Part shown: positions 4,080-6,201 of the stretch, piece by piece | How the letters are laid out: each line of letters starts with the position of its first letter | Numbering within the stretch: the stretch's first letter is position 1 | Assembly (NCBI GenBank): GCA_027004335.1 | Contig: JALTID010000239.1 | Location: 1-6,201, forward strand | Reading direction: 5' to 3' | DNA from: JALTID01 sp027004335 [NCBI: bacterium] | Lineage (GTDB): Bacteria > JALSQH01 | DNA length: 6,201 nucleotides | The notes under the pieces: generated by a model | Told to the model about the DNA's origin: nothing | The model's input: only the letters and a program-made list of their open reading frames with translations | Database searches by the model: none | Program-made: the position numbers and the translations under genes

Positions 4080-5228
4080 ATGATTGTTCTTAATGAAGAG
4101 ATTAGAAGGCTACGGCAGTTTGTTAGAAGCGAACATCCTCTAATCAATTTCTATCTTTCTATTAATCCTATCAGATTCAAGGAGAAAGAATGGAAGATAA
4201 AATTGAAGGATCTTGTTAAGGAAGCCAAAGAAAATTTGAGACTTGAGGCGAAATACCCCCGTGCAGAGATCAAGAGAATTTACAGTGACATGGATTATAT
4301 GGAAAGAGAGATAAATTCTATTGACTTTTCAGGTGCAAAGTCCATAGTGTGGTTTTACAGCAGTAGCCTGGCTCTTGATGTCCTGTTTAAAATTCCTGAA
4401 GAATTACCAAGGAATGATTTTATAACTGTTTCGGAATTACCCAACTATCTCCTCCTTGATGAGGTCATGTCCAATTTTAAGAGGTATCTCCTGATCCTTT
4501 TTGATAAAGAAAGAGTCAGGTTTCTTGAATATTTTATGAAGAAAATAAGAGAGTATATGAACATCAGAGAAAGAATTCACAGGGTCGAGGATTTTAATGA
4601 TTATGGGGCTGTTGAGAATAGGATCAAACGGCATGTGATGTACCACACATACAGGCATTTTAAAAATATAATGCTTCTTGCAAAGCAGATAATAGAGGAA
4701 GAAGAAATTGATGGTGTTATACTTGCTTCCAGTGCAAATTATCTTTCTATGTTAAACGAGAATCTTGATTATGAAATTAAAAACAGGCTCGTTAGAGAGA
4801 TAACTGGCCTTGATATAAATGCTGGGAGAGAAGAAATATTAAAGAAGATTGAGTCTATTGAAAAGGACCTGAAAAGGGAAGAGGAGGAAGAACTTTTCAG
4901 GAAATTAGAGGAGAATCTCGGTACAGATGGGAAGGCAACAGCAGGGATATCCGATTCCCTTAACGCATTGTATGAGGGTAAGGTAGAAACACTGCTTATT
5001 TCTCCATCTTTTAATGAGGAAGGATATGCATGTCCCTCATGCTATTATGTTTCTCTAAACATGGAGAAGTGTCCTTACTGCGGAAACGAAATGGAAAAGC
5101 TGAATAATGTACTAAACAAAATATATGATCTTGCCATCCTGAATAGTTCAAGGGTGAAACATATTAATTTCCTCACAGAAAAATTGGAAGAAAGGGGAGA
5201 AGTTGCTGCTTTGTTGAGATTCAGATAA
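4080..5228 (+). CDS. Bacterial archaeo-eukaryotic release factor-like protein (baeRF type)
   Basis: A 382-aa cytoplasmic protein with the three-part layout of bacterial relatives of aRF1/eRF1 and Pelota. Residues 1-130 form an alpha/beta N-domain that includes LINFYLSINP and the basic KLKDLVKEAKENL helix. Residues 134-245 form a middle domain with YLLILFDKERVRF (136-148) and HVMYHTYRHFKNI (185-197). A highly charged helix spans about 250-280. An L7Ae-like C-domain begins at SLNALYEGKVETLLIS (293-308). It carries a zinc ribbon with Cys318, Cys321, Cys331 and Cys334 (CPSC, nine residues, CPYCG) and ends in AALLRFR (376-382), all typical of this family. There is no GGQ peptide-release motif and no NIKS codon-recognition motif. 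The family is thought to act on ribosomes (rescue, hibernation or defence), but which role applies here cannot be said. GGAGGT at 4069-4074, five bases before the ATG, fixes the start. It leads a tight operon with the rhomboid gene, 16 bases downstream. Confidence 0.82.
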   Translation: MIVLNEEIRRLRQFVRSEHPLINFYLSINPIRFKEKEWKIKLKDLVKEAKENLRLEAKYPRAEIKRIYSDMDYMEREINSIDFSGAKSIVWFYSSSLALDVLFKIPEELPRNDFITVSELPNYLLLDEVMSNFKRYLLILFDKERVRFLEYFMKKIREYMNIRERIHRVEDFNDYGAVENRIKRHVMYHTYRHFKNIMLLAKQIIEEEEIDGVILASSANYLSMLNENLDYEIKNRLVREITGLDINAGREEILKKIESIEKDLKREEEEELFRKLEENLGTDGKATAGISDSLNALYEGKVETLLISPSFNEEGYACPSCYYVSLNMEKCPYCGNEMEKLNNVLNKIYDLAILNSSRVKHINFLTEKLEERGEVAALLRFR

Positions 5229-5244
5229 GGGGCTTATGGCATAG

Positions 5245-5955
5245 ATGTTTCCTTTAAAAGATGATATTCCTTCGCGAACCTTTCCCTGGGTTAATTATTC
5301 AATAATTATCTTAAATTTTATTGTGTTCTTCTATGAGATTTCGCTGGGGAGTCATTTTCAGATATTTCTTGCACAATATGGTTTCGTTCCCCTTAGATTT
5401 AGTGTGGGAATAGAACGGCATCTTCCCTTTTTCACTCTCATTCTTCCAGTTTTTTATTCTATGTTTCTTCATGGAGGCTGGTTTCATATTATAGGAAATA
5501 TGTGGTTCCTCTATATTTTTGGGGACAATGTTGAGGATCGCCTGGGCCATTTTCATTACATAATTTTTTATCTTGTATCAGGTTGTATTGCCGTGTTTAC
5601 CCAGTACATAATAAATCCTTATACCAATATCCCTCTTATTGGTGCAAGTGGAGCTATTGCAGGGGTTTTAGGTGCCTACATGGTTTTTTATCCTTACGCC
5701 CGGGTGCTGACATTGCTAATAATTTTTATTTTTATTGATATTGTATATCTCCCTGCGATCCTGTATCTTTTCCTCTGGTTTTTTATACAATTTCTGTATG
5801 GAACTTCTTCAGCTCTCTACGCCTCTGCTACTCGCGGGGGAGTTGCATGGTGGGCGCATGTTGGTGGTTTTGTATTTGGTGTTATATGGGCAATTATTAT
5901 AAGATTAAGAGGTGGAAATGAAAAAGATTATCTTCATGAAATACTGCCATGGTAG
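5245..5955 (+). CDS. Rhomboid family intramembrane serine protease
   Basis: A 236-aa polytopic membrane protease that cleaves transmembrane segments within the bilayer. The start MFPLKDDIPSRTFPWVNY is the standard N-terminus of bacterial rhomboids. The first membrane helix is at about 17-33. The H-G-G-W-F-H-x-x-x-N motif is at 76-85 (His76, His81 and oxyanion Asn85), followed by FGDNVED (92-98). The catalytic dyad is complete: Ser135 in GASG (133-136) and His205 in AHVGG (204-208). About six membrane segments fit the length, so the enzyme should be active. The nearest purine-rich site, AAGGGG (5227-5232), lies 12 bases before the ATG, which is long. Translation probably relies on coupling to the upstream gene, whose stop is 16 bases away. 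The stop codon is embedded in the ribosome site of the next gene. Substrates cannot be predicted. Confidence 0.95.
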   Translation: MFPLKDDIPSRTFPWVNYSIIILNFIVFFYEISLGSHFQIFLAQYGFVPLRFSVGIERHLPFFTLILPVFYSMFLHGGWFHIIGNMWFLYIFGDNVEDRLGHFHYIIFYLVSGCIAVFTQYIINPYTNIPLIGASGAIAGVLGAYMVFYPYARVLTLLIIFIFIDIVYLPAILYLFLWFFIQFLYGTSSALYASATRGGVAWWAHVGGFVFGVIWAIIIRLRGGNEKDYLHEILPW

Positions 5956-5960
5956 GAGGT
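5954..5960 (+). promoter_or_regulatory. Strong ribosome binding site before the SDH-type gene
   Basis: AGGAGGT overlaps the rhomboid TAG stop (5953-5955) and sits four bases before the ATG at 5965. It is the strongest such site in the window. It implies that translation really begins here, immediately before the protease nucleophile motif, and that the gene is coupled to the rhomboid gene. Confidence 0.8.
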
Positions 5961-5964
5961 CAGG

Positions 5965-6201
5965 ATGGATCATGCGATGAGCGGTGGAACTCCTATTGCT
6001 CTTGCGGCTGATGAGATATATATGGATCACAATGCAGTCATGGGGCCAGTTGATCCGCAGCTTGGTGATATGCCAGCAGCAAGCCTTATTAAAATACCTG
6101 AGATGAAGTCTTATGAAAAAATAGAGGATAGAACTCTGGTCTTGATAGATTTGTCTAAAAAAGCGATAAAGCAGATATGTGATTTTGTGAACTGGATCCT
6201 T
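5965..6201 (+). CDS. SDH-family (ClpP-fold) serine protease, N-terminally truncated, runs off window
   Basis: The 79 codons visible here match the central part of the SDH family of membrane-anchored ClpP-class serine proteases (PF01972 type). HAMSGGTPIALAADEI carries the presumed nucleophile Ser6, followed by VMGPVDPQLGDMPAASL and the helix region ending in CDFVNWIL. The 3' end lies beyond the window. Family members are about 280 residues, with roughly 100 residues before the AMSGG motif: an N-terminal membrane anchor, the first half of the fold and an H-T-P-G-G-type oxyanion loop. None of that is present. The same frame has a stop (5953-5955) nine bases upstream, and the preceding DNA codes for rhomboid. 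The gene is therefore either an internal deletion placed just after a genuine start codon, a mis-joined assembly, or an unusual short variant. As it stands, a working protease is unlikely because half of the fold is missing. The ATG at 5977 is an alternative start but lies 16 bases from the ribosome site. Confidence 0.75.
   Translation, partial: MDHAMSGGTPIALAADEIYMDHNAVMGPVDPQLGDMPAASLIKIPEMKSYEKIEDRTLVLIDLSKKAIKQICDFVNWIL

Follow-up and report, generated by a model that had tools for sequence, protein, structure and literature searches.

A shortened SDH-type protease frame beside an intact rhomboid gene is probably a damaged version of an ordinary SDH gene

At the right-hand end of the window (the whole 6201-base stretch of DNA analysed here), an intact rhomboid protease gene is followed by a frame of the SDH-type ClpP-like serine proteinase family (PF01972) that opens almost directly on its nucleophile motif. 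This raises the question of whether the frame encodes a working short protease or is what is left of an ordinary gene and, in the latter case, whether the damage lies in the assembly or in the organism. The window is the entire, complete contig C239, which ends within the SDH frame, and it comes from a fragmented MAG (G000; 262 contigs, 1.5 Mb, 80% complete). Before position 4080 it carries the end of a frame that by appearance is a permease, a transport permease, a GH31 glycosidase and a minus-strand thioesterase. The remaining features are given below, with reference to G001, a genome of a different genus and, in a search of 59 genomes that included G000, the sole other member of the G000 family.

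4080 to 5228, plus strand: baeRF family 10 protein of 382 aa (PF18854, E 1.6e-13), found at the same position in G001 and opening the conserved neighbourhood.
5245 to 5955, plus strand: intact rhomboid protease of 236 aa (PF01694, E 2.1e-33), with 73% identity to the G001 rhomboid over residues 1-236.
5954 to 5960, plus strand: Shine-Dalgarno sequence AGGAGGT, overlapping the rhomboid stop; AGGAGGT also precedes the full-length SDH gene in G001.
5965 to 5973, plus strand: ATG (5965-5967) and the codons for MDH, equal to residues 1-3 of the G001 full-length SDH (MDHTINS...).
5973 to 5974, plus strand: junction at which 120 codons are missing by comparison with G001 residues 4-123.
5974 to 6201, plus strand: SDH core kept, 76 codons to the contig end (PF01972 positions 129-202), with 79-82% identity to G001.
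5980 to 5982, plus strand: codon of the nucleophile Ser, S6, invariant in a 6-sequence alignment.
6106 to 6108, plus strand: codon of the invariant Lys, K48, invariant in the same alignment.
6075 to 6201, plus strand: 127 bases identical to the first bases of contig C235, an exact overlap of the two contig ends.

Rhomboid proteases are recognised by a GxSG motif and a catalytic His region, and the rhomboid translation, which matches the Rhomboid domain, shows GASG and WWAH. Its stop codon TAG lies nine bases upstream of the SDH ATG and in the same frame, as the first-pass annotation of this DNA had described. That annotation also placed AMSGGT four codons after a Shine-Dalgarno sequence and ATG; both signals are present, but only three codons intervene, the frame starting MDHAMSGGT with AMSGGT beginning at codon 4. 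When the frame was compared with the PF01972 profile, a check that had been proposed at the same time, only positions 129-202 of 286 aligned (E 1.3e-30, 106.9 bits, the curated cut-off being 31.3 bits). The aligned core contains AMSGGT, ADEI, GPVDPQ and the invariant Lys, and S6 and K48, 42 residues apart, are invariant among six aligned sequences. The N-terminal membrane helix and the HTPGG loop, which belong to profile positions before 129, are absent from the frame and its translation, in agreement with the earlier remark that the anchor, the first half of the fold and this loop are lacking.

The SDH gene continues on contig C235, whose first 127 bases are identical to the end of the window. 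Among the 53 unmasked G000 contigs (window included), no further exact overlap between contig ends turned up at lengths of 21 to 400 bases. An exact overlap of 127 bases is the typical leftover between neighbouring pieces of a de Bruijn graph with k=127, and C239 and C235 are therefore very probably neighbours, with the proviso that the graph may branch here and that the two contigs may stem from different strains. The joined frame encodes 102 aa and ends in TAA. Inclusion of C235 extends the PF01972 match to profile position 214 of 286; what follows from about there to the C-terminus, including the THD motif, is absent from the joined frame. A 10-N gap lies at 905-914 of C235, about 700 bases past the SDH stop. 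The straddling of a contig break with an exact overlap, and a gap nearby, argue that the gene is a damaged copy. They also fit an assembly collapse in particular, in which the organism would have a full-length SDH gene and the assembler would have joined its distant parts by way of a minor variant or a chimeric molecule, or by closing a gap across a short repeat.

The gene order in G001 (baeRF10 - rhomboid - full-length SDH - S30AE-like gene - lipoprotein-like gene) matches that in G000, and the G001 SDH protein, 276 aa from its ATG, starts MDHTINS. Relative to this protein, residue 3 is followed directly by residue 124 in the window frame, so that residues 4-123 (120 codons), which comprise the membrane helix, the first half of the fold and the HTPGG loop, are missing in frame. 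The comparison supports the in-frame loss postulated in the first-pass annotation, although its size is 120 codons against G001 and not 95-100. The N-terminal half is indeed missing, as had been stated, but the account was incomplete: a second loss, also in frame, lies beyond its view on C235, where a net 54 codons are missing after EEKA near the C-terminus. The length of 102 aa corresponds to the 208 G001 residues through EEKA minus 120, that is 88, plus a 14-residue tail; the exact position of the C-terminal junction is uncertain. We also considered a mosaic tail, in which the last 14 residues would be four collinear pieces of the full-length tail separated by several deletions. The embedding score was reached by 232 to 300 of 500 shuffles at five gap costs and was thus no better than shuffles; a single net C-terminal loss is therefore preferred.

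Just before AMSGGT, among 37 other homologs, the second-last residue is H in 36 and the last is Y in 34. Since the D and H that the window frame carries at these two places occur in none of the 37, MDH is best read, from the alignment, as the original protein start of SDH. The finding that the SDH gene in the same gene order in G001 is full-length and also starts with MDH argues for a damaged copy in the window.

The gene that follows SDH (L107:214-903 in G000, ahead of the 10-N gap; L046:6568-7554 in G001) has an S30AE ribosome-hibernation-like N-terminal part and a long C-terminal region; the S30AE match has an E value of 2e-7 in the G000 copy, and the G001 copy has no Pfam match. The lipoprotein-like gene of G001 has no Pfam match either and is named from a reading of its start. 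On the other side of the locus, an MjaI-type restriction endonuclease and an N6/N4 DNA methylase are encoded between the GH31 gene and the thioesterase-like gene on contig C37 of G001 (L046:1458-3349), the methylase having a weak SNase-like match at its C-terminal end. This restriction-modification pair is missing from the window and was gained or lost between the two genera.

To place the short frame among its homologs, 386 genomes (G000 included), picked as relatives and forming a sample and not a census, were searched with the window fragment at E 1e-12, and 56 gave matches. Apart from G000, these contain 60 SDH places in 55 genomes, 57 of which have stop-to-stop open frames of at least 273 aa, a further argument for the damaged copy. 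The comparison with relatives for which the first-pass annotation had called finds a full-length gene in G001 and long open frames almost throughout. The three remaining places (220, 194 and 241 aa in G098, G149 and G142, respectively) appear to be split by frameshifts, the rest of the gene adjoining in another frame (L259:53-870, L257:773-1920 and L258:1174-1860, respectively; sequencing error is possible). The rhomboid frame that adjoins the split gene of G149 also appears broken. No in-frame short form resembling that of the window was found in the 60 other places of the 55 genomes, which weighs against a working short SDH. The three broken genes show that SDH can be disrupted elsewhere (3/60) and lend some support to a second form of damage, recent real in-frame deletions that would have left a non-functional remnant, but they are frameshift-split and not shortened in frame. 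Within G000 itself, a search with the full-length SDH (contigs below 3 kb masked) gave, besides the window frame, two partial matches only: residues 104-159 in a frame of 305 aa (41% identity) and residues 91-152 in one of 512 aa (34% identity). As the fetched G000 contigs below 3 kb (8 of 60) were all masked, the pieces missing under a collapse could lie there.

We asked how often the two protease genes are found together. After removal of copies identical over a 50-residue stretch, 38 distinct SDH genes were counted; a rhomboid gene adjoins on the same strand directly upstream in 10 and directly downstream in 4, and none was found within 400 bases for 24. Five of the 38 come from loci that were fetched with a rhomboid; when these are excluded, the counts are 6, 3 and 24 of 33. 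On these counts the rhomboid-SDH link is recurrent, yet not general. An ancestral layout of rhomboid followed by full-length SDH, as first suggested from the window, draws support from the order in G001 and from the 10 genes with a rhomboid upstream. Same-strand neighbours in either order, 14 of the 38 in all, are found at 5245-6201 of the window and at L007, L009, L012, L048, L049, L058, L065, L230-L233, L244 and L246, and in L048 the arrangement is SDH - rhomboid - SDH.

To see what the losses would mean for the protein, the full-length G001 SDH was modelled with AlphaFold from six sequences. The model is of moderate quality (pLDDT 69, pTM 0.70; low confidence at 54-67 and 152-182) and shows a long N-terminal helix and strands at 45-50, 54-58, 61-65, 88-94, 116-120 and 137-140. 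The part retained in the window (residue 124 on) contains the nucleophile helix, strand 137-140 and later helices, whereas the lost part holds the long N-terminal helix and five of the six modelled strands. The 79-aa window fragment modelled by itself gave a pLDDT of 64 and a pTM of 0.46, with no strand. SppA and ClpP are the best-ranked solved folds for the G001 model, the top Foldseek match being SppA of Bacillus subtilis (PDB 3rst, 4kwb; E 1.9e-6, TM to query 0.46); the likeness is remote (16% identity, rmsd 8.3), and the window fragment corresponds to a small part of this fold. G001 SDH residues 88-166 also match, weakly, the sequence of PH1510-N, a membrane protease of the NfeD type (PDB 2deo, 3bpp; E 5e-4). 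PH1510-N has strands and a loop N-terminal to its nucleophile, and the window frame is without them. The published account of PH1510-N gives a Ser97-Lys138 pair with a spacing of 41 (PMC3795559), compared with 42 for S6-K48 in the window, and by this analogy K48 may be the catalytic base. Compared with the PF01972 family as a whole, the window frame shares the core and misses the N-terminal half and a C-terminal part.

The predicted product would therefore keep its presumed Ser and Lys dyad. Because the membrane helix, most of the strands and the oxyanion-loop motif are missing, a dyad without oxyanion loop and sheet should, to judge from the models, be inactive, and the fragment should neither fold nor cut; loss of function is what we infer. 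That five of six strands lie in the lost part and that the fragment models poorly argue for the damaged copy. The same observations, together with the absence of the membrane helix and HTPGG loop, count against a working mini-protein built on the Ser-Lys core, which might act beside the rhomboid, for example in a partner or regulator role. Such a protein would nevertheless explain why both losses are in frame, why the start signal and stop are kept and why the core is conserved with its invariant Ser and Lys. On balance we consider it unlikely, and we give slightly lower odds again to a genuine, expressed 102-aa SDH, reduced to the Ser-Lys core, that functions alongside the rhomboid, whether as partner, as regulator or within a multi-subunit assembly.

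The core was also examined for relaxed constraint. The SDH core compared with G001 gives pN 0.106 and pS 0.747, and the rhomboid of the same two genomes gives pN 0.170 and pS 0.849; no stop or frameshift was found in the SDH core. In the trees, the SDH core branch is 0.16 for G000 versus 0.07 for G001, and the rhomboid branch is 0.22 versus 0.29. The resulting asymmetry of 2.3 for the SDH core lies within the 1.5 to 5.5 seen for five other sister pairs of less than 90% identity (four near-identical pairs lie above that range). The G000 SDH ranks 5th of 39 for private residues. It differs at 4 of the columns with a conservation of 85% or more, the top count among the 20 of 39 rows listed and one common to two of them. 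At columns where one residue is found in at least half of the sequences, G000 departs at 7 and G001 at 1, three of the seven being the MDH columns. By eye, 9 of 13 or 10 of 14 core changes were assigned to the G000 side, with a binomial chance of 0.05 or 0.03. The branch lengths lean towards decay in G000, but asymmetry and private residues fall within the range of intact homologs, and we do not regard the core as clearly decayed; the signs of relaxation are weak and mixed. The likeness of the kept core to an intact gene, in pN/pS, private residues and branch asymmetry, supports a damaged copy and especially a collapse. It counts against real deletions, for which the slightly longer G000 core branch is a point in favour. 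It should be noted that the weakness of the relaxation signs and the lack of stops and frameshifts can also be held against damage of any kind.

Whether collapse is widespread in this assembly was examined in the 53 unmasked G000 contigs (366 kb of 1.5 Mb) and 55 G001 contigs (543 kb of about 2.4 Mb). No internal gap of at least 15 aa was found in 69 orthologs of at least 55% identity, a test that is blind to end losses such as the one here. Of the G001 queries, 60 matched the sampled G000 contigs, and apart from the SDH they gave one internal loss (28 nt, at a gap of 10 Ns) and four terminal flags. These four lie in ORFs of 102-155 aa, one of which runs antisense to the S30AE-like gene; the reverse test with 52 queries gave three terminal flags. 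Systemic collapse of the G000 assembly was rejected on these results, and because the 60 queries gave only that one loss, collapse is not common in the sampled contigs. Gaps of 10 Ns were present in 12 of the 53 unmasked G000 contigs (13 gaps; L107:905-914 and 11 other contigs) versus none of the 55 G001 contigs. By comparison with G001, about 39 bases belong in the gap of L154, and the length of 10 N is therefore not trustworthy.

The rarity of comparable internal losses speaks against damage in general, as do the absence of Ns from both junctions and the preservation of the frame by each of the two losses, an outcome with a chance of 1 in 9 that damage does not call for. The rarity also counts against collapse in particular, which would require two events in one gene, the 60 queries showing no other internal loss free of Ns. 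Gap closing by an assembler requires overlap at the junction; the conserved PHY codons before AMSGGT match GATCAT at only about two bases, unless the start side matches. Real deletions, by contrast, would account for the clean N-free junctions, the original start and stop, the occurrence of losses on two contigs, and losses that are both in frame in an assembly with no comparable internal loss in 60 queries except the one at an N gap. Once a first deletion had killed the gene, a second would be free, and the frame would have stayed open either fortuitously or because an open frame is favoured where translation runs on into the next gene. We regard collapse as possible at somewhat less than an even chance and real deletions as possible in nearly the same degree, the two being about equally likely.

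Taken together, these results indicate, with a probability of about 0.8, that the window SDH is a damaged version of the ordinary gene of a rhomboid-SDH pair and not a designed short protease. On this reading the lineage carries the order baeRF10 - rhomboid - SDH-type (SppA/ClpP-like) membrane protease - S30AE-like gene, and the SDH frame would have lost 120 codons between its MDH start and AMSGGT, plus a net 54 codons near its end, to give a 102-codon frame that retains the start signal and stop of the intact gene. A damaged gene would add one more case to the broken or collapsed copies of known protease genes and would show again that reads are needed where a gene starts oddly at the end of a contig. 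Should the short form work, half of the ClpP-type fold would be dispensable. The more lasting point is the recurrent pairing of rhomboid and SDH, two membrane proteases that may share one pathway.
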